From Actinomycetota bacterium (GTDB taxonomy: Bacteria; Actinomycetota; Thermoleophilia; Gaiellales; Gaiellaceae): 20,108 nt of DNA. Shown here piece by piece: positions 1 through 14,857 of this stretch. The position numbers and the translations under genes were made by a program. The notes beneath the pieces were generated by a model, which searched no databases, was not told the origin of the DNA, and worked only from the letters and a program-made list of their open reading frames with translations. The first letter of the stretch is position 1; each line of letters begins with the position of its first letter. The stretch lies in NCBI GenBank assembly GCA_003170995.1, contig PMXT01000050.1, positions 1-20,108 of the forward strand. Direction: 5' to 3'.

Positions 1-840
1 CAAGCCCCACTCGAAGCGCGAGCGGAGTCGAGGCTCGAGCGTCGCGAGCTCACGAGGTGGCCGGTCGGAGCTGAGTACAACTTGGCTCCCGGCCTCGAAA
101 AGGGCGTTGAAGGTATGGAAGAACTCCTCTTGGATCCGCTCTTTGCCCTCGAAGAACTGGAGATCGTCGACCAGTAGTACGTCGTAGTGGCGGTAGCGCT
201 GCTTGAAGCTGTCGATGCGCTTGTCGCGGAGCGAGTCGATGAAGTCGTTCATGAAGCTCTCGCTGGTCACGTAGAAGACGCTTGAGTTGCGTGAGTGCTC
301 GGAGACGTAGTGGGCGATTGCGTGCAGAAGATGGGTCTTGCCAAGGCCGGTGCCGCCGTAGATGAAGAGCGGGTTATACGCTCGGGCGGGTCTCTCGGCG
401 ACGGCGAGAGCGGCCGCATGCGCAAAGCGATTCGACGACCCGATGATGAAGAGCTCGAAGGTGTACTTCGGGTTGACGCCGGTAGGTGATGTACTAACCT
501 GGCCTCGCTCCGGCTCGGGCGTCGAGGGCTCGGGCGTCGAGGGCTCGGCGACCAGCGCTTCCAATGGATCGACCACCGAGAGCACAACTCCGCACTCGCG
601 GCCGGCCAAATCCCTGACAGTGGCGTGGAGGAGATCAAGGAAATGCCCCTCGATCCACTCGCGAGTGAACTCGTTCGGCACAGACACGACAAAGAAGTCG
701 TCGGTTAGCTCGCTTCCTGCGGCCGCACCAAACCAGGTCTGGAAGGTGGCTTCGCTGAGCGCCTCACGAAGTCGCTCGGCGACTGCGGCCCAGAGATTTC
801 CGGCGTTGTCTAGTAGTGAGGATTCCACGCGGTTGACCAT
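1..840 (-). CDS. dnaA: Chromosomal replication initiator DnaA (N-terminal 280 residues; cut by window edge)
   Basis: Initiator ATPase that binds DnaA boxes and melts oriC. Reading the reverse strand from the ATG at 838-840 gives 280 codons with no stop before the window edge, so domain IV (DNA binding) lies outside. Visible parts: domain I at residues 1-90 (ATFQTWF motif), a short proline/glutamate linker at about 95-122 with a repeated EPSTP, then the AAA+ domain with [13 protein letters not shown] (132-144), Walker [10 protein letters not shown] (162-170), Walker B LLVDD (222-226) and sensor-1-like LSSDR (256-260). An in-frame stop at 874-876 lies 11 codons upstream, which fixes the start closely. 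No clear Shine-Dalgarno precedes it; a hairpin occupies that spot. It diverges from rpmH across the origin, the classic actinobacterial layout. Confidence 0.97.
512..541 (-). repeat. 15-bp tandem repeat encoding the DnaA linker
   Basis: Two exact copies of GGCTCGGGCGTCGAG (512-526 and 527-541), plus a partial third copy, code for the EPSTP repeats of DnaA domain II. This linker is variable in length across bacteria, so copy-number change here would probably be tolerated. Confidence 0.85.
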
Positions 841-844
841 CCAT

Positions 845-860
845 CCGCCGTCGAAGGCGG
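845..860 (-). promoter_or_regulatory. Hairpin in the dnaA leader
   Basis: CCGCC (845-849) and GGCGG (856-860) form a five-pair GC stem with a six-base loop, ending five bases before the dnaA start codon. It sits where a Shine-Dalgarno would be expected, and none is seen. A role in limiting dnaA translation is inference. Confidence 0.4.
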
Positions 861-966
861 AAGTGCGAGCATATCAGCGTCGCCGCAGCCGAACAACGGT
901 CATATGTATACAGAGCGGCGGTCGTAGAAACACACATTATGCAGGAGTTTTGAAGCGTCCACACAA

Positions 967-975
967 TAATCCACA
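967..975 (+). promoter_or_regulatory. DnaA box, one mismatch
   Basis: TAATCCACA differs from the consensus TTATCCACA at one position. It faces the box at 978-986, making a head-to-head pair with a two-base gap. Confidence 0.65.
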
Positions 976-977
976 GG

Positions 978-986
978 TGTGGAGAA
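978..986 (-). promoter_or_regulatory. DnaA box, one mismatch, reverse strand
   Basis: TGTGGAGAA on the forward strand reads TTCTCCACA on the reverse, one mismatch from TTATCCACA. It is paired head-to-head with the box at 967-975. Confidence 0.6.
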
Positions 987-1056
987 CCTTCTCGACCTTA
1001 CGGCACTAAAGGCCTTTTTGCGGGCACTGAGCAGATCACGAAGCGGCAAAATGGAC

Positions 1057-1065
1057 TGTGGATAA
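1057..1065 (-). promoter_or_regulatory. Perfect consensus DnaA box, reverse strand
   Basis: TGTGGATAA is the exact reverse complement of TTATCCACA. It is the strongest DnaA site in the window and lies 23 bases before a candidate rpmH -10 element, so bound DnaA could also affect rpmH transcription (inference). Confidence 0.85.
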
Positions 1066-1087
1066 CTTCTATCTCGCGAGGCTCGTC

Positions 1088-1093
1088 TATACT
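1088..1093 (+). promoter_or_regulatory. Candidate -10 element for rpmH
   Basis: TATACT, one mismatch from TATAAT, lies 50 bases upstream of the rpmH start. The -35 position (around 1063-1070) has no good TTGACA match, so the promoter is tentative. Confidence 0.4.
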
Positions 1094-1099
1094 GGCGCA

Positions 1100-1120
1100 C
1101 GCCCATTGAACGCCCATTGA
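1100..1120 (+). repeat. Direct repeat in the rpmH leader
   Basis: CGCCCATTGA occurs twice (1100-1109 and 1111-1120), separated by one base, i.e. one helical turn apart between candidate -10 and start codon. This could be a binding site or chance; nothing else supports a role. Confidence 0.5.
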
Positions 1121-1142
1121 CCTCTCTAGGATCAGCGAGACC

Positions 1143-1277
1143 GTGAAGCGGACATATCAGCCAAACGTACGCCGCCGAAAGCGCAAGCATGGATTCCGCG
1201 CGCGCATGAAAACGCGGGCCGGGCGGCTGGTCCTGAAGCGCCGCCGAGCCCGTGGTCGCAAGCGGCTATCGGCGTAG
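1143..1277 (+). CDS. rpmH: 50S ribosomal protein L34
   Basis: Small basic protein of the large ribosomal subunit. The 44-residue reading frame begins with the typical [20 protein letters not shown] and ends KRLSA; the length matches the family. The start is GTG at 1143; a weak AGGA sits about 11 bases upstream. It is first in the forward gene group and lies 19 bases before rnpA, as in most bacteria, where L34 and the RNase P protein are co-expressed. Identification is secure because L34 is highly conserved. Confidence 0.97.
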
Positions 1278-1296
1278 TCTGAGCGAGGCGTGCAGG

Positions 1297-1638
1297 ATGG
1301 AGCGCCGGTACCGTCTCTCGCGGTCGCGGGATTTTGACAATGTCTACCGCCATGGCCGCTCGACTTCGACTCGCTTTTTCACGCTACACGCGTTTCCGCG
1401 CGAGGATGCAAGCAGTGAGCCACGGTTGGGGCTGGCGATACCGAAGAGCGTCGGTACGGCCGTCAAGCGAAACCGGCTCAAGCGCATGCTTCGAGAGGTG
1501 TGGCCGATGAAGGATCGCCGCAGGGGTTTCGACTACGTGCTCGTCGCGCGGCCCGGCCTGGCCGAGACCGTGGAGGCGCGGGGCTTCGACTGGCTGAGCG
1601 AGCGCGTCGACGAAGTAATGGAAAGGGCGGGCTCGTGA
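1297..1638 (+). CDS. rnpA: Ribonuclease P protein component
   Basis: Protein subunit of RNase P, which together with the catalytic RNA trims 5' leaders from tRNA precursors. The 113-residue product opens with the typical RYRLSRSRDFDNVYRHGRS, contains the GLAIPKSVGTAVKRNRLKR stretch with the family RNR signature around residues 57-68, and has the usual size. The reading frame is open further upstream to a GTG at 1252, but that would overlap rpmH; the ATG at 1297 with purine-rich AGG just before it gives the normal N-terminus. Its end overlaps the start of yidD by four bases (GTGA), suggesting coupled translation. Confidence 0.95.
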   Translation: MERRYRLSRSRDFDNVYRHGRSTSTRFFTLHAFPREDASSEPRLGLAIPKSVGTAVKRNRLKRMLREVWPMKDRRRGFDYVLVARPGLAETVEARGFDWLSERVDEVMERAGS

Positions 1639-1898
1639 AATACCCGGCGATCGCGCTCGTCTATCTATATCGGTACACGCTCGGCCTGCTCTTTCCGGCG
1701 AGCTGCAAGTACTACCCATCCTGCTCGAGCTATGCGATTGCGGTGCTTAGGCGCTACGGCTTTGTGCGCGGAACGCTCCTAACCGGCTGGCGGCTCCTGC
1801 GCTGTAACCCCTGGAGCGCAGGTGGTGTGGACAGGCCCGAAGATGCACGGCTGTTTGGGCGGCCTTGCCATTCACGCAGGGGGCACGTGACGTGCTGA
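1635..1898 (+). CDS. yidD: Membrane protein insertion efficiency factor YidD
   Basis: Small membrane-associated protein that helps the YidC/Sec route of inner-membrane protein insertion. The 87-residue product has the family core: YRYTLGLLFPASCKYYPSCS, a Cys-rich patch with the SCKYYPSCS motif, then GWRLLRCNPWSAGGVD (third conserved Cys; CNPW/F-x-x-GG-D signature). The GTG at 1635 overlaps the rnpA stop and has AAAGGGCGG upstream as a ribosome binding site. The frame is open upstream to 1500 inside rnpA, but no family homology is recognisable there. It overlaps the chosen yidC start by seven bases. Confidence 0.95.
   Translation: MKYPAIALVYLYRYTLGLLFPASCKYYPSCSSYAIAVLRRYGFVRGTLLTGWRLLRCNPWSAGGVDRPEDARLFGRPCHSRRGHVTC
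1878..1883 (+). promoter_or_regulatory. Ribosome binding site deciding the yidC start
   Basis: AGGGGG inside the end of yidD lies eight bases before GTG 1892, favouring that start over the in-frame TTG at 1865. Confidence 0.6.
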
Positions 1899-2740
1899 TC
1901 CTGGCCAACATCCTCGGCTTCCTCAGCCCGCTCGAGAATCTATTCCGGGCTGTACTCGACTGGCTGCACTACAGCGGTCATCTCTCCTGGGCCTGGGCGA
2001 TCGTGGCGCTGACGGTGATCGTGCGCATCCTGATCGTTCCGCTCACCGTCAAGCAGATTCACTCGATGCAGAGCCTGCAGGCGCACGCGCCCGAGATGAA
2101 GGAGATCCAGAAGCGCTACAAGAACGACAAGCAGCGCCAGCAGCAGGAGTTGATGCGCTTCTACAAGGAGAACAACATCAACCCGATGGCCTCCTGCCTG
2201 CCGATGCTGGCGCAGTTCCCGGTCTTCATTGCTCTCTACAGGGTTCTGCGCTCGTTCGCGAGGAACCTGCCATGCAATCTCCCGACCCCTAAGGGCGAGA
2301 AGGCCGGCTACGCATGCGTTGCGCGTGGCGACTTCTCCTGGCTCGGGCACAACTTCTTCCCCAACATCGCCGACAACATCACCGCGCATTGGAGCGGCTA
2401 CTTGCTGCTCATCATCTACGTCGGCAGCCAGATCGCGGCGACCATGTTCATGTCCTCTTCGGCTCAGAAGTCGCAGCGCGTGATGATGATGGCCCTGCCC
2501 TTCATAATCCTGCCCTTCATCCTCGGCTTCCCCACCGGCCTCGTCCTCTACTGGGCGACGACGAACCTCTGGACGGTCGGGCAAGGCCTGATCACGCGAT
2601 CTCTGATTCCCAAGCCCGCACCCCCGGTGAAGAGATCGTCGCGCACCCCCGCCGCCGAGACGAAGCAGCCGGAGGCGGACAAACGGCCGGCGCAACCTCC
2701 GCGACGGGTCAAGCGCAAGAAGAAGGGTGGCCGCAGGTGA
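1892..2740 (+). CDS. yidC: Membrane protein insertase YidC/Oxa1 family
   Basis: Inserts and folds proteins in the cytoplasmic membrane, with or without SecYEG. The 282-residue product is of the short Gram-positive type, without the large periplasmic domain of proteobacterial YidC. Visible features: a hydrophobic segment at about 32-52 holding the conserved Arg (VIVRILIVPL, R45), a charged cytoplasmic hairpin at about 66-95 (EIQKRYKNDKQRQQQE), the NPMASCLPMLAQFPVFIALY segment (97-116), further membrane segments near 168-186 and 200-235 (FPTGLVLYWATTNLW), and a basic Lys/Arg/Pro-rich tail (240-282) that likely contacts ribosomes. A TTG start at 1865 is possible but has a poorer ribosome binding site. 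It overlaps jag by four bases. Confidence 0.96.
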   Translation: MLILANILGFLSPLENLFRAVLDWLHYSGHLSWAWAIVALTVIVRILIVPLTVKQIHSMQSLQAHAPEMKEIQKRYKNDKQRQQQELMRFYKENNINPMASCLPMLAQFPVFIALYRVLRSFARNLPCNLPTPKGEKAGYACVARGDFSWLGHNFFPNIADNITAHWSGYLLLIIYVGSQIAATMFMSSSAQKSQRVMMMALPFIILPFILGFPTGLVLYWATTNLWTVGQGLITRSLIPKPAPPVKRSSRTPAAETKQPEADKRPAQPPRRVKRKKKGGRR

Positions 2741-3414
2741 GCGAAGAGCTTCGCGCCGAGGCCGAAGGAATCGACGCCGAAGAAGCTCGCGCGCGAGCTC
2801 TGGCCGAGATCAAGCGCCAGGCGCCCTGGATCGATGAGGAGTCGATCTCGGTGCAGCTGGTGGAAGAGGGCGAGCGCGGATTGCTGGGCATCGGCTCGCG
2901 CCCGGCTCGCGCCGTTGCGTTTGCCCGCGTGTCCGAGCCTCCGGCTCGTGAAGAGAACGAGCTCGCATCCTCACTGCGCGCCTACGCCGAGCTGATCGTT
3001 TGCAACATCGCGCCGGATTCACATGTCGAGCTGAGCGAAGAAGCGGAGACGATAAGCATTCGGTTTTTCGACGGCGATCTCGGCGTTCTGATCGGCCGGC
3101 GAGGTCAGACGGTAGACGCCATCGAACAGCTCGCAAACGCGATAGCTCACAACCAGGAGGGCCTGGACGCCAAGCGAGTTACGGTCGATGCGGGTGGATA
3201 TCGTGAAAAGCAGAAAGCGACCCTCAGCTATGCGGCCCTGCAGGCTGCTAAACGAGTCACCGCCAGTGGCGAGCCGCAGGCTCTCGAGCCGATGAGCGCG
3301 TACGAGCGCCGACTGGTGCACGAGCGCCTGAAGGACTACGCAGGAGTGACCACGACGAGCGAGGGAAACGATCCGAGCCGCTACGTAGTCGTCCTTCCGG
3401 CGGATGCCGACTGA
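2737..3414 (+). CDS. jag: Jag/KhpB-type RNA-binding protein (Jag-N, KH, R3H)
   Basis: Cytoplasmic RNA-binding protein usually encoded next to yidC; KhpB homologues bind RNAs that affect cell elongation and division. The 225-residue product has a Jag_N-like domain at 1-62 (GLLGIGSRPARAV), a KH domain at about 80-150 with GRRG (120-123) as the GXXG loop, and an R3H domain at about 155-221 with the R-x3-H motif (R191 to H195). GTG 2737 overlaps the yidC stop (GTGA), and GAAGGGTGG lies upstream as ribosome binding site. The frame stays open upstream to 2314, but that part is the yidC shadow. It overlaps rsmG by 11 bases. Confidence 0.94.
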   Translation: MSEELRAEAEGIDAEEARARALAEIKRQAPWIDEESISVQLVEEGERGLLGIGSRPARAVAFARVSEPPAREENELASSLRAYAELIVCNIAPDSHVELSEEAETISIRFFDGDLGVLIGRRGQTVDAIEQLANAIAHNQEGLDAKRVTVDAGGYREKQKATLSYAALQAAKRVTASGEPQALEPMSAYERRLVHERLKDYAGVTTTSEGNDPSRYVVVLPADAD

Positions 3415-4018
3415 GCTTGACCCGCGGCTCGAGCGCTGGCTAGACGCTCTACTCGGCACGCCCGGGCTGACCTCGATCCGCGACCGCGAACAGGCCTGGC
3501 GCGAGCATGTACTCGATAGCCTGCAGGCGGTCCCGCTCGTCGCCCGCTTTGCGGGCTCCATCGCGGACGTCGGCTCGGGCGGGGGAGCGCCGGGGATACC
3601 GCTCGCGGCTGCGTTCCCCGCGCGCGAGTTGACACTGATCGAGTCGCAGAGGCGCAAGTGCCGCTTTCTCGCGCGCTTCGAATGCGACTTCCCGAATCTG
3701 AGGATCGTCTGCGGCCGCGCCGAGGAGCAGGCGATCGATGTCTTCGGTGTGGTCGTGGCCAAGGCGCTCGCTCCGCCGGCAATCGCGCTGGAGTGGTGCC
3801 TCCCGCTTGTCGAGCCCGGCGGTGCGGTGATCTTGTTTACAGGCTCACTCGACCGAGATCTCGGTTCGGTGGCGCGCCTGCTCGGTGGCGGCGAGCCCGA
3901 GCTTCATCGAGTCGCAGGGTCGAGCGAGCGTCTGCTAATGGTTGTTCCGAAGCTCGAGCCGACCCCTTCGGGCTTCCCTCGCAGACCCGGAATGGCGAGG
4001 AAAAAGCCGCTGGGATGA
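3404..4018 (+). CDS. rsmG: 16S rRNA (guanine-N7) methyltransferase RsmG
   Basis: SAM-dependent methyltransferase that modifies G527 of 16S rRNA (E. coli numbering); its loss gives low-level streptomycin resistance in several bacteria. The 204-residue product has the SAM-binding motif IADVGSGGGAPGIPLA (53-68), the downstream acidic residue in LTLIESQRRKCRFL, and the RAEEQA segment. The region before the motif (REHVLDSLQAVPL) matches the family. It starts inside the jag end and is followed by a 40-base gap to parA. Genes mnmG/mnmE, common neighbours elsewhere, are absent, as is usual for actinobacteria. Confidence 0.95.
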   Translation: MPTELDPRLERWLDALLGTPGLTSIRDREQAWREHVLDSLQAVPLVARFAGSIADVGSGGGAPGIPLAAAFPARELTLIESQRRKCRFLARFECDFPNLRIVCGRAEEQAIDVFGVVVAKALAPPAIALEWCLPLVEPGGAVILFTGSLDRDLGSVARLLGGGEPELHRVAGSSERLLMVVPKLEPTPSGFPRRPGMARKKPLG

Positions 4019-4058
4019 AGGCCGAGCTTGTCCGTGCTCGCAAGTAGAGTGGAGCCGC

Positions 4059-4814
4059 ATGTCAGGCCACATCTACGCAGTAGCGAACCAGAAGGGCGGC
4101 GTCGGCAAGACGACGACCGCGATCAACCTGGCGGCCTGTCTGGCGGAGGCCGGCGAGCCCGCTTTAGTAGTAGATCTCGACCCTCAGGCGAATGCGACCT
4201 CGGGCCTCGGCGAGCGTGCGAACGGGACGTCTTCGTACGACTTGCTCGATGGTGCGTCGCTCGATGATCTGATCAGGCGGACCCGTTTCGCGAACCTCGA
4301 TCTCGTCCCGGCCAAGGCGGACCTCGCGGGCGCGGCGGTTGAGCTCGCCCAACACACGGGCGGCGATCGCTATCTGGCCGACTCACTGAACGAGGCAACC
4401 ACTCGCTACCGCTTTGTCTTTCTCGATTGCCCGCCCTCACTTGGCCCTCTGACGGTGAATGCGCTCGCGGCTGCCGATCGCGTGCTGGTGCCGGTGCAGG
4501 CCGAGTACTACGCACTGGAGGGCCTCTCGCAGCTGATGCGCTCGATCGAGCTCGTCCGCCGAAGCCTCAATCCGCGTCTGGCGATCGGAGGGGTGTTGCT
4601 GACGATGGTGGACGGTCGAACGAGGCTTTCGGCCGATGTCGCCGCGGAGGTGCGGCGGCATTTCGGCGAGCTCGTGTTCAAGACCACCGTGCCACGCTCG
4701 GTGCGACTGGCCGAGGCGCCCAGCTTCGGGCTGCCGGCGATAGTCCACGACCGGCGCTCGTCGGGTAGCGAGGCCTATTGGAAGGTGGCGATGGAGCTTG
4801 TCGAGCGCGCTTGA
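4059..4814 (+). CDS. parA: Chromosome-partitioning ATPase ParA/Soj
   Basis: ATPase that works with ParB to segregate the origin region. The 251-residue product begins with the deviant Walker A motif QKGGVGKTTTAINLA (11-25; K12 and K17), followed by VVDLDPQANATSGLG (A' motif) and FLDCPPSLGPLTVNAL. The size is typical of the short chromosomal Soj type without an extra N-terminal HTH. ATG 4059 has GGAG six bases upstream; the open frame continues back to 3942 but overlaps rsmG and lacks similarity. Its stop is 147 bases before the parB start, longer than usual for this pair. Confidence 0.96.
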   Translation: MSGHIYAVANQKGGVGKTTTAINLAACLAEAGEPALVVDLDPQANATSGLGERANGTSSYDLLDGASLDDLIRRTRFANLDLVPAKADLAGAAVELAQHTGGDRYLADSLNEATTRYRFVFLDCPPSLGPLTVNALAAADRVLVPVQAEYYALEGLSQLMRSIELVRRSLNPRLAIGGVLLTMVDGRTRLSADVAAEVRRHFGELVFKTTVPRSVRLAEAPSFGLPAIVHDRRSSGSEAYWKVAMELVERA

Positions 4815-4961
4815 TTGCAGGCTGACCGGCCCCGCTCGCCCCCCGCTGGCGGCTGCAAAGCCGCGCGATGCGGCGTCCTCAGTCGCATCCGTAGTCTCCG
4901 GCTACGAATGCTCCCTGCGTCCTTGCCTCACTTGCTTTTCGCTCGCCATCGGAGGACGTTC
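4815..4961 (+). promoter_or_regulatory. parA-parB gap with stable and mutually exclusive hairpins
   Basis: Three stems are visible. GCGGCT/AGCCGC (4849-4854, 4859-4864) closes a GCAA tetraloop. GATGCG (4867-4872) pairs with CGCATC (4884-4889). GCATCCGTAG (4885-4894) pairs with CTACGAATGC (4902-4911) with one mismatch. The last two share bases 4885-4889, so they cannot form together. The region is open in the parB frame back to 4815 but reads as low-complexity sequence without ParB similarity. It may be a repeat-type palindrome (REP-like) or a leader controlling parB; the sequence alone does not decide. Confidence 0.45.
4951..4955 (+). promoter_or_regulatory. Ribosome binding site deciding the parB start
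   Basis: GGAGG lies six bases before GTG 4962, the best-placed Shine-Dalgarno in this gap. It favours that start over the upstream TTG at 4815. Confidence 0.75.
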
Positions 4962-5810
4962 GTGACCAGTCATCCTGCCGGTCGAAGAGGCCTTGGACGG
5001 GGGCTCGAGGTGCTGGTCGGCGGCGCCGGCGAGTCCGAGCTGGTGCATCTGCCCCTGGAGATGATTCACGCCAACCCGCGCCAGCCGCGTAAGGCATTCG
5101 ACTCGGATGCCGCCGCCGGGCTCACTGCCTCGATCAAGGCTCAAGGTCTATTGCAGCCGCTCATCGTGCGCTTGCGAAAGGAGGGCGGCTACGAGCTGAT
5201 CGCCGGCGAGAGGCGCCTGCGCGCCGCCCGCGGTGCCGGCCTCGCCACGGTACCGGCCGTGGTGCGGGAGGCCGACGACCGCGAGAGCCTCGTCCTTGGC
5301 CTGGTCGAGAACGTCGCCCGCGAGCAGCTGTCACCGCTCGAGGAATCTCGTGCCTACGCTGTGCTGCTCGACGAGTTCGGACTCTCGCTGGGTGAGATCG
5401 CCGACCGGGTCGGGCGCTCGAAGCCCTCGGTCTCGAACCGGCTGCGCCTGCTCGAGCTCCCCGACGAGGTACTGGAGATGCTTTCCTCCGGCGAGCTGAG
5501 CGAGGGGCACGCCCGCGCCGTACTCGCCCTGCCCGACCACGACGCCCGCAAGGCGCTAGCCCGCCGCGCCGCGAAGAGCGGAATGTCCGTGCGCCAGGTC
5601 GAGCAAGCCACCCGCGACGGCGGCGCCCCGCGCCAACGCCGCCCTCGCCCCGAATCGCTCGACCCCGCGCTCGCCTCGCGCGCGGCCAGCGCGGCCGAGA
5701 AGTTAACCGGCCTAAACGCTCGCGTGAGTCCGGGCAAGCTCGAGATCCGCTTCGCGAGCGAGACCGAGCTGGCCGAGCTGATTGAGTCGCTCGAGCGAGC
5801 GGCCGAATAA
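4962..5810 (+). CDS. parB: Chromosome-partitioning protein ParB (Spo0J family)
   Basis: Centromere-binding protein that loads at parS sites, spreads as a CTP-dependent clamp and recruits SMC. The 282-residue product starts with GRRGLGRGLEVL, a typical ParA-interacting tail. It then shows ANPRQPRKAF (37-46), the GERRLRAA box (82-89; the GERRxR nucleotide-binding motif), ENVAREQLSPLEE (116-128), and a helix-turn-helix at about 141-165 (SLGEIADRVGRSKPSVSNRL) that would read parS. The C-terminal region (250-282) is a short dimerisation-type helix. No canonical parS (TGTTTCACGTGAAACA) was seen in the window; only an off-spaced relative at 18894. Confidence 0.96.
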   Translation: MTSHPAGRRGLGRGLEVLVGGAGESELVHLPLEMIHANPRQPRKAFDSDAAAGLTASIKAQGLLQPLIVRLRKEGGYELIAGERRLRAARGAGLATVPAVVREADDRESLVLGLVENVAREQLSPLEESRAYAVLLDEFGLSLGEIADRVGRSKPSVSNRLRLLELPDEVLEMLSSGELSEGHARAVLALPDHDARKALARRAAKSGMSVRQVEQATRDGGAPRQRRPRPESLDPALASRAASAAEKLTGLNARVSPGKLEIRFASETELAELIESLERAAE

Positions 5811-5822
5811 CTACCACCGTTC

Positions 5823-6236
5823 GTGAGCGACCCGCTAGTCACTCCGCCGCTACTACGCAAAGTCGACTGCATCCGGCTCGCGGTCGATAACCTCGACGCG
5901 GCGATCGCCTTTTACCAAAGGCTCGGTCACGGCCTGATCTGGCGCCGCCCAACGGCGGCGGGGCTTCACTTCCTCGATTCGGATGCTGAGCTGGTTCTCC
6001 AGACTGAGCAGCTCGGCATCGAGGTTGATCTCCTGGTCGATGACGTCGAGCGCGCCGTAGAGCGGTTCGTCGTCGCTGGAGGAACTCTCGTCAGCGGCCC
6101 CTTCGAGACCGAGATCGGCCGCTGCGCCGTGGTAGCCGATCCCTGGCGGAACACACTCGTGCTGCTCGACATGAGCCAAGGGTCATTGCCGGAAACGCGA
6201 AGAGAAGAAAACTCTGTCACCGACGGGAGTGGGTAG
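5823..6236 (+). CDS. VOC-fold (glyoxalase/bleomycin resistance-like) protein, substrate unknown
   Basis: The 137-residue product has the babbabb-type VOC pattern: a first strand DCIRLAVDNLDAAIAFYQRLG (about 15-35), a middle GLHFLDSDAELVLQ, and the typical end CAVVADPWRNTLVLLDMSQG. VOC proteins are metal-dependent lyases, dioxygenases or binding proteins. The usual first metal ligand His/Gln in the opening strand appears as Arg here, so enzymatic activity is uncertain. The GTG start at 5823 is 12 bases after the parB stop and has no clear ribosome binding site, so translation may depend on parB. The last 20 residues (PETRREENSVTDGSG) are low-complexity. Function is not recognisable beyond the fold. 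Confidence 0.75.
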   Translation: MSDPLVTPPLLRKVDCIRLAVDNLDAAIAFYQRLGHGLIWRRPTAAGLHFLDSDAELVLQTEQLGIEVDLLVDDVERAVERFVVAGGTLVSGPFETEIGRCAVVADPWRNTLVLLDMSQGSLPETRREENSVTDGSG

Positions 6237-6306
6237 CGAGACCGAACCGACGGAGCCGGTCACGCCCGGCCGGTTGGTGCGCCGGCCAAGCTCGATTCAT
6301 GGAGGC

Positions 6307-6400
6307 GCCTCTCGCGTTCTCGGGGCGCCAGCGGTGTCAGGGGCTCCGGGCGGCCAGTCACGCCCGGCCGGTTGGAGCCCCGGCCGAGAGCGCGAGATGG
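6307..6400 (-). repeat. GC-rich foldable repeat, copy 1
   Basis: This 94-base unit shares most of its sequence with 7675-7803: both begin GCCTCTCGCGTTCTCGGGGC and end GCCCCGGCCGAG-nn-CGCGAGATGG. The ends are complementary to each other (CTCTCGCG with CGCGAGA; CTCGGGGC with GCCCCGGCCGAG), so each copy can fold into one long stem. Copy 1 lacks an inner hairpin of about 35 bases present in copy 2. Strand is given relative to the tRNA next to copy 2. Confidence 0.8.
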
Positions 6401-6471
6401 ACATTCTTGCGTCTTATTCGAACGCCACAAACCTCACAAAACTTGCTGGAGAGCTCGGGCTCGCGTCGTAA
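6397..6471 (+). pseudogene. Truncated helix-turn-helix-like fragment
   Basis: ATG at the end of repeat copy 1 opens a 24-codon frame reading MDILASYSNATNLTKLAGEL, ending GLAS before two consecutive stops (TAA TAG). The pattern, a helix with IL..Y followed by N-L-T-K-L-A-x-E-L-G-L, resembles the first helices of a winged or simple HTH domain, cut before the recognition helix ends. It could be a remnant of a transferred regulator or chance. Confidence 0.25.
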
Positions 6472-6489
6472 TAGAAGGGCCGACTTCGA

Positions 6490-6519
6490 CTTTACAGCAC
6501 AGTCTTTTGTGCTGTAAAG
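6490..6519. repeat. Perfect 12-bp inverted repeat with 6-base loop
   Basis: CTTTACAGCACA (6490-6501) and TGTGCTGTAAAG (6508-6519) are exact reverse complements around GTCTTT. It lies 29 bases past the stop of the reverse-strand gene at 6548 and may stop its transcription, but no T-run follows on either strand. The 12-6-12 layout also resembles recombinase core sites or operator palindromes. It is AT-richer than its surroundings. Confidence 0.75.
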
Positions 6520-6547
6520 AGCCTGGAAAACGGTAGCACTTGTTCGC

Positions 6548-7594
6548 CTAAAACGGCGCAAGCTGCTCGCCGCCTATCAAAACAGCCTCAGCCTCTTGGT
6601 AGGGATTATTCATTGCCGCCGTTTCAAGGAATGTCATGAAGAGCCGATCGAGAGGCAGTTCTTGCTGCCGTAGGCTTGATGGATGGTGCGACTCAGCGAC
6701 AGTTTTCGAGAAGGTAGCGGAGACGAACGATGCCGGTCTCGGGTCTGGCGAATCAGCGGTGGAGAACCCGCGGAAGAGAAAGATAGGTTGGCGGGTCCGT
6801 GACCAGAGCGCTTGAGTGAACGCAAGACGAGCCAGGAGGTGTTCGGCGCGACGCGTTTTCGACCATCCGCCTTCGAAGAGCTTGCGATCCCGGATGATCT
6901 TCCCCTCAAACCGACACAAGCCAAGTTCGGCTAGAACGATCGCGTGTCCCTTGACGTGCTCGCCCGAATGAGGATTGCTGACATAAATCGTGGCGAACTC
7001 GGAGTCCATCCGCTCGAGCTTACGCTGGCGCAGATACTCTCGAGCAAGCTCGAACAAACGAGCCTCGCCACAGCGCGCCTTGATGTACGACGACAGGTCA
7101 AGCTCGTCTGTCGCTTGGTGAGCACCGAGCCACCGAGTGGCTAGCAAGTGCTCGCGTCTGAGCTTCTCGAGCGTACGCTCTCGGATCTCTGAATCAACCT
7201 CGATCGTCATGGGTTGGTTGAGTTCCCGTATACGGCGCTCGAGGTCGCTGACCGTCTTAGGAGGCGCAATACGACTATTTGTCTCGAATTGATAGCGATC
7301 GACATTCTCAAGGGGCACGAGCCAATGCGCTCCTTTGTCTTCGAACGCTTGAATCTCGACCTCGAAATAGCCACGGAGCCCATCGATCCCCGCGATTTCT
7401 ATAGGAGTGCGGCGTGCATCAAGCAGCCGTCCCTTGTTTCCTCTAACGAGATACCGAAGCTCGGCTGGTAAGAAGTCGGAATCAGGCCGCGGATTCGGGT
7501 CAGTTAGGTAGATCGAGCTGGGTGGCATGACTAATCCAGCGTACGACAGATCTTTGTCAGACAACAAGAACCGCGGCCCGTGAGCCGTAGGCAC
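6548..7594 (-). CDS. Uncharacterised protein with candidate C-terminal ADP-ribosyltransferase (R-S-E) domain
   Basis: I do not recognise the full-length family. From GTG 7594 the product has 348 residues; an ATG at 7526-7528 (residue 23) is an equally plausible start, and neither has a clear ribosome binding site. Residues 42-106 look like a small beta-rich domain (RYLVRGNKGRLLDARRTPIE, then AHWLVPLENVDRYQF). Residues 112-200 are helical and charged. The C-terminal part contains, in order, IFLFRGFS (R275), FVSATFS (S292-T294-S296) and YQEAEAVLI (E334-x-E336), the order and spacing of the R-S-E active site of mono-ADP-ribosyltransferases. No signal peptide or membrane segment is evident. GC is visibly lower than in neighbours: 48% over 7261-7320 by hand count against 70% over 5281-5340 in parB. 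It is a single gene lying between two direct repeats. Confidence 0.8.
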   Translation of the reverse strand: MPTAHGPRFLLSDKDLSYAGLVMPPSSIYLTDPNPRPDSDFLPAELRYLVRGNKGRLLDARRTPIEIAGIDGLRGYFEVEIQAFEDKGAHWLVPLENVDRYQFETNSRIAPPKTVSDLERRIRELNQPMTIEVDSEIRERTLEKLRREHLLATRWLGAHQATDELDLSSYIKARCGEARLFELAREYLRQRKLERMDSEFATIYVSNPHSGEHVKGHAIVLAELGLCRFEGKIIRDRKLFEGGWSKTRRAEHLLARLAFTQALWSRTRQPIFLFRGFSTADSPDPRPASFVSATFSKTVAESHHPSSLRQQELPLDRLFMTFLETAAMNNPYQEAEAVLIGGEQLAPF

Positions 7595-7674
7595 CGCGTC
7601 TTCGCGCGAACGACGTATTGAAGGATGAAGTGATCGTAAGGGAGCGCCATCCGCGGTGGCCCTCGTAAGAATAA

Positions 7675-7803
7675 GCCTCTCGCGTTCTCGGGGCGCCGCT
7701 GAGTGTGCGGCTCCGTAGAGCGGCGTGCGCTCAGCGGCGTCAGGGGCTTCGGGCGGCCAGTCGCGCCTGACCGGTCGGAGCCCCGGCCGAGTGCGCGAGA
7801 TGG
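7675..7803 (-). repeat. GC-rich foldable repeat, copy 2, abutting tRNA-Ile
   Basis: This is the longer copy (129 bases) of the repeat at 6307-6400, in the same orientation. Besides the outer complementary ends it contains an extra inner palindrome, GCCGCTGAG with CTCAGCGGC (7695-7736 region). Its GAGATGG end runs into the discriminator/acceptor end of the tRNA-Ile gene. Read in the tRNA direction the repeat follows the tRNA directly and is itself followed by TTATTCTT, so it could act as the tRNA terminator. Confidence 0.8.
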
Positions 7804-7874
7804 GCGATGGTGGATTCGAACCACCGACCTCCGCCTTATCAGAGCGGCGCTCTAACCGACTGAGCTAATCGCCC
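7801..7874 (-). tRNA. tRNA-Ile (anticodon GAT)
   Basis: The reverse strand folds into a complete cloverleaf: acceptor GGGCGAT/ATCGCCC, D-stem GCTC/GAGC, anticodon arm CCGCT-CTGATAA-GGCGG with GAT at positions 34-36, variable AGGTC, and T-arm GGTGG-TTCGAAT-CCACC. The discriminator base is A. CCA is not encoded; the next bases are TCTCGCG, so CCA must be added enzymatically. A -10-like TATCAT lies just upstream. Confidence 0.98.
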
Positions 7875-11930: not shown

Positions 11931-12656
11931 ATGCCCCATTGGCAGCGACTGGCCATTCTTGGCGCCGTAATCGTGCTCACACTTCTCCTCTCGGAGATCG
12001 CCGATCGTGCACTCGCACGACGAAAGCTCGATCCGAGCGCGATCACCCGTTATCGAATACTCAGGCGCAGCGTTCGCGCGGGTATCGTTTTTGTGGGCCT
12101 ACTCTCGGCTCTCCTCGTCATTCCCCAGGTGAGGGCGGTCGCGGGGGGGATCCTCGCTTCTTCGGCCATCATCGGCATCGTCTTTGGCTTCGCCGCGCGG
12201 ACGACGATCGCCAATGTGATCGCCGGGCTGATGATCGCCACGACTCAGCCGCTGCGGCTCGGAGATGTGATCGAAACCAGCGGCGAGCGAGGCGTGGTCG
12301 AGGAGATCACCCTCAACTACACCTTTATCCGCCTGGGTGACGGCTCGCGGTTCGTGATACCGAACGAGAAGCTCGCCTCCGATACTATTAAGAACTTCTC
12401 GATCCGAGGGCATGAAACGCTTGCCGAAGTCAGTGTGCAGATTCCGATCGGGATCGATCTCGAGGAGATCGTCACCGGTTTGGAGGAGGCGCTTGCAGAC
12501 GAGAGGGGGCTCGAGGTCTACGTGAGTGACCTATCCGACAAGGCGACGATTCGCGTACGAGCGGTCGCCCGCGACGCCGCGTCCGCCGATGAGCTCGAGA
12601 GAGCCTTGAGACTGCGCGTGCACGAACGGCTGCGTGGTGAGGGAGTGCTCGCGTGA
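11931..12656 (+). CDS. MscS-type small-conductance mechanosensitive channel
   Basis: Releases solutes when membrane tension rises in osmotic downshock. The 241-residue product has three hydrophobic segments: TM1 about 7-27, TM2 about 49-72, and the pore-lining TM3 about 75-103 (SAIIGIVFGFAARTTIANVI). The conserved MscS beta domain follows, with QPLRLGDVIETSGERGVVEEI (107-127), TFIRLGDGSRFVIPNEKL and a C-terminal alpha/beta part. It is smaller than E. coli MscS (286) mainly at the N-terminus. AGGAGG (11923-11928) lies only two bases before ATG, unusually close. The stop overlaps the start of the penicillin-binding protein gene by four bases (GTGA), suggesting coupled expression of channel and wall synthase. 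Confidence 0.93.
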   Translation: MPHWQRLAILGAVIVLTLLLSEIADRALARRKLDPSAITRYRILRRSVRAGIVFVGLLSALLVIPQVRAVAGGILASSAIIGIVFGFAARTTIANVIAGLMIATTQPLRLGDVIETSGERGVVEEITLNYTFIRLGDGSRFVIPNEKLASDTIKNFSIRGHETLAEVSVQIPIGIDLEEIVTGLEEALADERGLEVYVSDLSDKATIRVRAVARDAASADELERALRLRVHERLRGEGVLA

Positions 12657-14857
12657 GCCCGCCTTCTCGACGGAGAAGACCAAGCTCACCGCGGCGCGCT
12701 CGTGCGAGCAACGCGTACACCGACGCGCAGCGTCGCCGGCGCCGCCATCACGCTCGGCTAAAGCGCCGCCGCCGTACCAAGAGGATGATTCTCGGCGTTT
12801 TCGGCGGCGCGGCGGTTCTCCTCGCCGTAGGTGTCATCACCGGTGGCGGGGTCGTCTTCACCAGGTGCAGCCTCTCCTCGCTGAAGCCGGCGGCGATCGG
12901 GGAGAACTCCTTTGTCTATGCGGCTGGCGGCTCGCTTCTCGGCGCGATCCCCACGGCGCAGAACCGTCAGGTAGTGGGCTGGAACGAGATTTCACCGTGG
13001 ATGCCAAAGGCCGTCGTTGCGATCGAAGACAGGCGCTTCTACGAGCACGGCGGCGTCGATTATATTGGGATAATTCGAGCCGCCATCGCCGACCTTCGCG
13101 CGCGCAAGGCAGTTCAGGGCGCATCGACGATCACCCAGCAGCTCGTTCGCAATCTCTACATCTCCAATCGCGAGCGCACGGTGAGTCGCAAGCTGAAGGA
13201 AGTCTGCTTGGCACGCAAGCTCGATCAGGCCTGGTCGAAGCAAAAGATCCTGACCGCCTACATGAACCAGGTTTTCTACGGCTCGAACGCCTACGGCGTC
13301 GAGGCCGCAGCCGAGACGTACTTTTCGAAGCACGCGAGCCAATTGACGCTGCCACAAGCGGCGCTTCTCGCCGGTCTGCCCCAGGCGCCGAGCGACTACG
13401 ACCCGTCTTACAACAAGCCGGCTGCGCTGACACGCCGGAATGAAGTGCTGAAGGCGATGCTCGACACCAAGGACATCAGTCGCAAGCAGTACAAGCGCGC
13501 CATCGCCACGCCGATCCACCTCAAGTCCGGAGAGATCTACAAGAACATCAGGGAGCCGTATTTCTTCAGCTACGTCACCGCTCAGCTGGTCAAGCAGTAC
13601 GGAGCCGAGACCGTGCGCTCGGGGGGCCTCAAGGTCTATACGACGATCAACCCGCGCATGCAGCGACTGGCCAGGAAAGCGATTCGCGACAATCTCTACT
13701 ACAGCACCGATCCCGCCTCCGCGATCGTCGCCATCGACCCGCGGACGGGCGCCATCAAGGCGATGACGGGGGTCATTCCGGGGAAGTCGAACAACCAGTT
13801 CAACCTTGCCGCGCAGGCCAAGCGTCAACCGGGCTCGACGTTCAAGGTTTTCGTCCTGACGGCGGCGATCGCGCAGGGGATGGACCCGTACAGCACCTAT
13901 TACACCTCGGCGCCGTTCACCTACCAGCCTGACTCAGGCAGCGCGCCCTTTACCTTCCACACCTACGACAACACCTATGCTGGCTCGATCTCTGTGGCGA
14001 GCGCGACTCTGATGTCCGACAACACGGTTTACGTCCAGCTGGGACTTGATACGGGGCTCCAGGAGGTCGCCGATATGGCGTACAAGCTGGGTGGTATCAA
14101 TATTCCGGCCGACGGGATCGTCCCCGCGATGGCGCTCGGAACTGCCGCCGTATCGCCGCTTCAAATGGCCAGCGCCTACGCGACGCTCGCGGCCGGCGGC
14201 ATCCGCTCCGAACCGCTCGCGATAACGAAGGTCGCTCTGCCCGACGGCACTGTTGATCGGAGCGCCGGCTGGGGCAAGCCGCGTCACGAGCGGGTGATAC
14301 CAGACTGGGTCGCCTACGAGGTGACCAAGGTGCTCGAGCAGAACATGCTCAGCGGAACTGCTGTCGGGGCGTATTTCGGCCGGATAGCAGCGGCCAAGAC
14401 GGGAACGACTGACAATCACGCGGACGGTTGGCTCTGCGGCTACACGCCTCAGCTCGCGACCGCGGTTTGGATGGGGTTTCCGGGCGGAGAAATTCCGATG
14501 TACTCCGTACACGGGGTTGCCGTAGCGGGAGGCAACATTCCGGCCTCGATCTGGCACGACTTCATGGCGGCCGCGATGGCGAGCATGCCGATGCGCGACT
14601 TCTCCACCCCCACGACCGCGGCTAGGTTCGTCATCTGGTCGAAGGGAAGCTACGGTTCCCTGGGCTCTGCGACGACCACCTCGTCGGACACGACGGGCGC
14701 GGCTACGACGAGCGCGACGAAGCGCGTGACCACGAAGCGCGCGACAACCACGAAGACGACCACACCTCCACCGACAACGACTTCTACGCCGGTGACAACA
14801 ACCTCGACTACGCCGGTGACAACAACCTCGACTACGCCGGCGTCGCCGAGACCCTGA
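12653..14857 (+). CDS. Bifunctional class A penicillin-binding protein (glycosyltransferase GT51 + transpeptidase)
   Basis: Polymerises and cross-links peptidoglycan outside the membrane. The 734-residue product has a very Arg-rich cytoplasmic start (6-45), one membrane anchor (46-70), a GT51 domain (about 95-275) with EDRRFYEHGG (catalytic E125) and GASTITQQLVRNLY, and a transpeptidase domain (about 352-620). The active-site set is complete: S395-T-F-K398, S455-D-N457 and K582-T-G-T. The tail (about 660-734) is Thr/Ser/Pro-rich with a tandem repeat, probably a wall-spanning or glycosylated stalk. GTG 12653 overlaps the channel gene. Its stop is five bases from the stop of the convergent M28-like gene, with no room for a terminator. 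Confidence 0.96.
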   Translation: MSPPSRRRRPSSPRRARASNAYTDAQRRRRRHHARLKRRRRTKRMILGVFGGAAVLLAVGVITGGGVVFTRCSLSSLKPAAIGENSFVYAAGGSLLGAIPTAQNRQVVGWNEISPWMPKAVVAIEDRRFYEHGGVDYIGIIRAAIADLRARKAVQGASTITQQLVRNLYISNRERTVSRKLKEVCLARKLDQAWSKQKILTAYMNQVFYGSNAYGVEAAAETYFSKHASQLTLPQAALLAGLPQAPSDYDPSYNKPAALTRRNEVLKAMLDTKDISRKQYKRAIATPIHLKSGEIYKNIREPYFFSYVTAQLVKQYGAETVRSGGLKVYTTINPRMQRLARKAIRDNLYYSTDPASAIVAIDPRTGAIKAMTGVIPGKSNNQFNLAAQAKRQPGSTFKVFVLTAAIAQGMDPYSTYYTSAPFTYQPDSGSAPFTFHTYDNTYAGSISVASATLMSDNTVYVQLGLDTGLQEVADMAYKLGGINIPADGIVPAMALGTAAVSPLQMASAYATLAAGGIRSEPLAITKVALPDGTVDRSAGWGKPRHERVIPDWVAYEVTKVLEQNMLSGTAVGAYFGRIAAAKTGTTDNHADGWLCGYTPQLATAVWMGFPGGEIPMYSVHGVAVAGGNIPASIWHDFMAAAMASMPMRDFSTPTTAARFVIWSKGSYGSLGSATTTSSDTTGAATTSATKRVTTKRATTTKTTTPPPTTTSTPVTTTSTTPVTTTSTTPASPRP
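14785..14840 (+). repeat. 24-bp tandem repeat in the PBP tail
   Basis: Two exact 24-base copies (14785-14808 and 14809-14832) plus eight bases of a third code for TPVTTTST-type repeats of the Thr-rich tail. Being in frame and exact, the copy number is likely to vary between strains. Confidence 0.85.

Follow-up and report, generated by a model that had tools for sequence, protein, structure and literature searches.

A family of putative R-S-E ADP-ribosyltransferases with a predicted N-terminal Tudor/SH3-like barrel, sporadically distributed among bacteria

The gene described here lies on the minus strand of a 20,108-nucleotide stretch of DNA (the window; contig PMXT01000050.1 of assembly GCA_003170995.1) from a member of the Gaiellaceae and very probably encodes an enzyme with ADP-ribosyltransferase (ART) activity. 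The first-pass annotation of this DNA had suggested an R-S-E-like ART at the C terminus of the protein. This suggestion is supported by the order of the Arg, Ser, Glu, and Glu residues and their conservation in all eight members of the family, by the predicted strand pattern, and by an ART being the one structural match listed for the C-terminal half. As an explanation of the gene as a whole, we lean toward a soluble, cytoplasmic R-S-E mono-ADP-ribosyltransferase that is aimed by its barrel, is encoded by an accessory gene, and serves in conflict or stress.

The family comprises the window protein, its relative in genome G945, and six proteins from loci L035 to L040. Residues are numbered from M23 of the 348-residue open reading frame (ORF), so that R253, S270, E312, and E314 correspond to R275, S292, E334, and E336 of the latter. 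These four residues are among the 44 identical positions of the eight-row alignment, and hence R275, S292, and E336, on which the first-pass annotation had built, are identical in every homolog, as is E334. The segments LFRG (R275), SATFS (S292/T294/S296), and QEAE (E334/E336) were likewise found at the residues it had named. In the part of the source available, the R-S-E class is defined by region 1, [YFL]-R-X at a strand end; region 2, [YF]-X-S-T-[SQT]; and region 3, [QE]-X-E leading into a strand (PMC3000352). Region 1 of the family reads [FY]-R-G in 8/8 members and region 3 E-A-E in seven and E-K-E in one, both in agreement with these rules. Region 2 is F-x-S-[AWT]-[TS] and thus F-x-S-x-[ST] in 8/8 members; the published form occurs in one of the eight, and the textbook S-T-S is confined to the copy of G945. 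A relaxed motif ([YFL]RG..F-x-S-x-[ST]..[QE]-x-E), which was fitted after the family had been seen, matches 8/8 members, 0/382 other long frames in the loci, and 7/5000 shuffles of the window protein. A stricter pattern of the published type matches 1/8 members—the window protein not among them—along with 1/382 frames and 17/5000 shuffles.

The model features two domains, a predicted barrel and an ART-like part, joined by a variable middle (Table 1). The barrel is predicted to be of the Tudor/SH3-like type and would be non-catalytic. Conserved positions are denser in it than in the putative catalytic part: The invariant residues amount to 2/26 in segment 1–26, 18/58 in 27–84, 0/98 in 85–182, 14/66 in 183–248, and 10/78 in 249–326, and the strongest motifs of the family, GNxGRLLDxRRTP and FEDxGAxW, are N-terminal. 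A fold predicted from the single sequence was discarded at a predicted local distance difference test score of 34.6. No fusion of the barrel to other proteins was found among 149 genomes except for the gene of the window itself. No export signal was recognized, Pfam gives no trafficking domain in the seven members scanned, and the folded barrel starts at around residue 19.

Table 1. Positions of the ART gene, its parts, and adjoining elements in the window (residues in M23-based numbering, those of the 348-residue ORF in brackets)
Feature	Position	Strand	Remarks
ART gene	6548..7528	-	326 residues; most likely ATG at 7528 (M23 of the 348-residue ORF), start from alignment with relatives; stop codon 6548-6550
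Predicted Tudor/SH3-like barrel, N-terminal, residues 19-84	7277..7474	-	18 of the 44 family invariants in residues 27-84
Variable, mostly helical middle, residues 85-182	6983..7276	-	no invariant residue among 98; model
ART-like part, C-terminal, residues 183-326	6551..6982	-	begins with the conserved VSNPxSGExVKGHAIVLAELGL block; alignment, model, structural match
Region 1 Arg, R253 (R275)	6770..6772	-	invariant 8/8; strand 249-255 in model
Region 2 Ser, S270 (S292), in F-V-S-A-T-F-S	6719..6721	-	invariant 8/8; strand 268-272 in model
Region 3 E-x-E, E312-A-E314 (E334, E336)	6587..6595	-	both Glu invariant 8/8; leads into strand 314-318 in model
Dispersed intergenic repeat, first copy, in the gap from VOC gene to ART gene	6307..6400	+	
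Dispersed repeat, second copy between ART gene and tRNA-Ile	7675..7803	+	shares 72 nt (90% identity) and an identical block of 23 nt with the first copy
tRNA-Ile (GAT)	7801..7874	-	upstream of ART gene, same strand
Perfect 12-bp inverted repeat, 6-base loop	6490..6519		28 bases past the ART stop; not called by terminator prediction

By analogy with the R-S-E class, Arg253 and Ser270 would hold the active site together with NAD+, and Glu314 would act on the nicotinamide ribose; Glu312, which precedes it by two residues, would steer the arginine side chain of the target. According to the same part of the source, E-x-E enzymes attack Arg, and Q-x-E enzymes Asn, Gln, or Cys (PMC3000352); since E-x-E is present in 8/8 members, the target is probably arginine. 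The barrel likewise seems rather to serve for aiming or sensing: It would bind a conserved partner or signal and thereby aim the enzyme or switch it on, which would account for its being tolerated although no antitoxin is present. Because no export signal was recognized, no immunity gene is present, and the folded barrel is conserved, the enzyme most likely acts in the cell that produces it. Upon phage infection or damage, it may modify either a host protein or one belonging to the invader; we hold the chances of such a conflict or stress role to be evenly balanced.

The members of the family occur in four classes and three phyla. The scan of contigs from species genomes (84,980 species) with two peptide patterns lying outside the R/S/E motifs yielded the six loci from metagenome-assembled genomes (MAGs) of a Thermoleophilaceae (L035), a Solirubrobacterales (L036), a Spirochaetales (L039), and an Acidimicrobiales (L040) bacterium, from Candidatus Solirubrobacter pratensis (L037), and from Methylosinus sporium DSM 17706 (L038); the scan is limited by its two patterns, so that eight members are a lower bound. 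The genome searches relied on similarity to a whole protein or a profile. In 399 genomes of the window's class, two hits reached E <= 0.001, the window itself and a relative in G377 (E 7.7e-82, 47%), a genome of the same class and of a different order. G436 was found among 146 genomes of the family of G377 (2/146, G377 included), and G945 among 247 genomes of the class of G711 (2/247, G711 included); the proteins of G377 and G436 are identical to two of the scan loci. The seed alone was recovered from 101 relatives, from a phylum sample of 296 genomes, from 297 genomes in the order of the Methylosinus genome, and from 198 in the class of the Spirochaetales genome. Within the genus of the window genome, the five remaining genomes (77–93% complete) gave no match to the ART gene. 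All but two (G000 and G377) of the 59 genomes with matches in the class-level search, 57 in number, had weak first-look matches (E 0.0014–1), which were set aside. Two of the four that fall on residues 21–49 were inspected by eye (L012, L025) and are ketoacyl-synthase-like ORFs, and a further one (L004) has no ART-like ORF by eye; these inspections cover three of the 57 genomes.

The Actinomycetota copies share 40–55% identity with each other, the Methylosinus copy 34–39% with those, and the Spirochaetales copy 27–33% with all. Identity thus tracks taxonomy loosely, and therefore both an old spread with many losses and a transfer between relatives fit. No relatives were found in phages by tblastn of the window and L038 proteins, in plasmids by tblastn of the window, L038, and L039 proteins, or in viral contigs by pattern scans. 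An integron cassette was rejected for the Spirochaetales copy, where shuffles lead one to expect 1.8 attC-like core pairs and the sequence has none; no repeated element was recognized at gene ends. The presence of the family is sporadic, and the gene is most likely an accessory one that is gained and lost between genomes.

The neighborhoods of the eight loci vary. No type of adjacent or near gene occurs in more than two of them: HipA is found in two, and an adjoining VOC gene in two. The relative of L038 lies beside prephenate dehydrogenase and VOC genes, that of L039 beside a GNAT acetyltransferase gene, and that of locus L047 between GntR/solute-binding protein and succinyl-CoA ligase genes. 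In G377, the ART gene follows tRNA-Arg, and the examined stretch of the other six loci besides the window carries no tRNA; adjacency to a tRNA in two of eight loci (window, L036) was rejected as a rule and is a hint at most. In L040, PsyrT (E 2.5e-217), HipBA, an HD_4 protein, and a Fic/Doc protein lie within 8 kb of the ART relative (41–6229 and 12390–12782), a possible cluster of defense and toxin–antitoxin genes. L035 features an unusual pair at 240–5738, namely a HipA_C protein without a match to the HipA N-terminal domain and a 1394-residue ATPase, the latter with a NACHT match below the Pfam cut-off and a weak Avs2 match. In L037 (7288–9757), four-base overlaps join the ART gene to both neighbors, its start to the stop of a sugar transferase gene and its stop to the start of one for a PfkB kinase, which suggests translational coupling. 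Phage defense or stress arrest is favored by the sporadic spread and by the two loci rich in conflict genes, and metabolic regulation by the coupled operon.

The latter is the substance of the strongest rival, which is unlikely though to be reckoned with: The protein would be a housekeeping-style regulator, an arginine-directed ART whose target, a metabolic enzyme or a ribosomal or transcription protein of its own cell, is tuned by the modification, without any part in conflict. DRAT, which acts on nitrogenase reductase, provides the analogy. The overlaps in L037 speak for this explanation, as does the resemblance of the barrel to Tudor/KOW domains, a group that includes binders of the transcription or ribosomal machinery, and so does the fact that an antitoxin was recognized in 0/8 loci. 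However, no neighbor recurs in three or more of the eight loci, no ADP-ribosylhydrolase was seen among the neighbors examined (by eye, and by Pfam on 19 genes), and the rarity of the family—three new members in 1,677 genome searches of overlapping samples, seeds left out—is unlike that of a core regulator. A more specific form of the conflict reading is doubtful, namely a single-gene immune effector in which the barrel senses a phage cue or a core machine such as RNA polymerase or the ribosome, so that an arginine is modified and the cell is shut down without an antitoxin.

ART domains are common in bacterial toxins, and toxin–antitoxin-like genes lie near the ART relative in two loci; together with the sporadic occurrence of the gene, this fits the toxin of a toxin–antitoxin pair or of a polymorphic toxin cassette, directed against kin or its own cell. 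This is improbable, given that no antitoxin or immunity gene is conserved beside the ART gene in any of the eight loci (ORFs by eye; Pfam on 19 chosen neighbors), as the first-pass annotation had already noted for the window, and that no trafficking domain was found by Pfam, the N terminus being the folded barrel of the model.

The library searches bear on the class assignment itself. No Pfam or NCBIfam family matches the window protein at E <= 10, and PADLOC returned nothing for it or for the relatives L038, L039, and L040. The curated ART models (ADPrib_exo_Tox and others) gave no match at E <= 1 for the seven members other than G945, so that the proposed search with hidden Markov model profiles of ARTs did not back the assignment; Pfam and NCBIfam yielded, for these seven, single-member matches to unrelated models at E 0.03–0.2. 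The protein is therefore an orphan in these libraries, as first described, but not in genomes. Matches to five PHROG families, each by one of the seven members (best phrog_21112, E 0.004 over ~29 residues), are taken as chance. PF03496 found no match in 149 genomes of the class, which is uninformative since 14 control genomes were equally silent. In sequence comparisons with solved structures, the single protein matched unrelated entries at E 0.26–0.58, which were rejected, and whole, C-terminal, and barrel profiles gave matches at E > 1 only. In the structural comparison suggested at the outset, the sole structure among the 50 Foldseek matches listed that covers the C-terminal half is the ART Vis (PDB 4xzj), but this match is not significant. 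Two points weigh against an ART: Neither Foldseek nor sequence profiles give a significant match to a solved ART, and the strict region 2 pattern is missing in 7/8 members. Another fold that keeps R, S, and E-x-E for other reasons is nevertheless improbable in view of how all four residues are ordered, spaced, and strictly conserved, the strand pattern, and the identity of the one structure listed for the C-terminal half.

Vis of Vibrio splendidus shares with the family the order aromatic-R-G, F-x-S-x-[TS], and E-x-E. It is a single domain with a signal peptide, as far as the available part of the source describes it (PMC3000352), whereas the family has a barrel, another region 2, and no recognized export signal; Vis was not recovered by sequence with the profile of the family. 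ModA and ModB of T4 phage are intracellular and feature R..S..E-x-E as well, the invariants of five proteins of this type including R72, S96, E163, and E165. The C-terminal profile scores 23.0 against these five, compared with at most 17.3 in 30 column shuffles, over 16 columns in which region 1 is LYRG in both. With an hhalign probability of 3.7% (A6) and 2.3% (A5), no profile relationship was found, and the match is a resemblance at the expected place, with homology not established by profile. Unlike the family, which was not found in the phage and viral collections searched, ModA and ModB are phage proteins; they have ~200 residues and no barrel was seen in them. CmdTAC, an mRNA ADP-ribosyltransferase defense system, shares only a possible antiphage role; it has several components (CmdT, CmdA) in the part of the source available (PMC11618068), whereas the family consists of a lone gene and has no PADLOC match in four members. 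The barrel has no sequence match to Tudor/SH3-like barrels such as SETDB1, BAHCC1, KOW, or the UvrD C-terminal domain (best E 1.5, an unrelated protein), and its two motifs are those of the family and not of these barrels. In the open-licence literature of PubMed Central, no printed name was found for the family and no paper on bacteria that joins an ADP-ribosyltransferase to Tudor and SH3-like domains, the latter being weak evidence of absence.

In the window, the 348-codon ORF spans 6548–7594 (ORF listing), as first reported; the minus strand is a detail that was then lacking, and a plus-strand reading was rejected because stops interrupt the frame. M23 (base 7528) is the likely start since the relatives begin there in the alignment; by eye, neither candidate start is preceded by a clear ribosome-binding site. 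The GC content of 56.7% is the lowest among 18 window genes measured (the others 58.1–71.1%), in keeping with the low GC noted initially. The gene sits between a glyoxalase-like VOC gene and tRNA-Ile, and the inverted repeat past its stop is a possible terminator or operator. Counting the query itself, the GC-rich dispersed repeat matches the 1.9-Mb assembly 20 times, and 12 of these matches reach >= 57 bits. The interval from parB to tRNA-Ile (window 5810–7801; L074–L078), near yidC/rsmG/parA, varies in content and length across six genomes of the genus. In G005, the VOC gene is followed by 342 bp before tRNA-Ile, and the ART gene is absent; the interval measures ~0.3 kb after parB in G002, ~2.8 kb in G004, and ~6.5 kb with other genes in G003, and the 6.5 kb examined in G001 do not contain parB. 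Pieces of the repeat occur in this interval in G003, G005, and G002 (L075, L076, L078), which are without the ART gene.

The enzyme class is ordinary; the family and its architecture are new in the libraries searched. If the preferred reading of a barrel-aimed cytoplasmic ART is true, this would be an ART family with a barrel for which Pfam, NCBIfam, PHROGs, and PADLOC hold no model, so far as members were scanned. The barrel would then provide a handle on how ARTs are aimed or silenced in the cytoplasm of their own host without an antitoxin, in a small protein with four residues open to testing. The family would thus be a good candidate for an unrecognized stress or antivirus effector.
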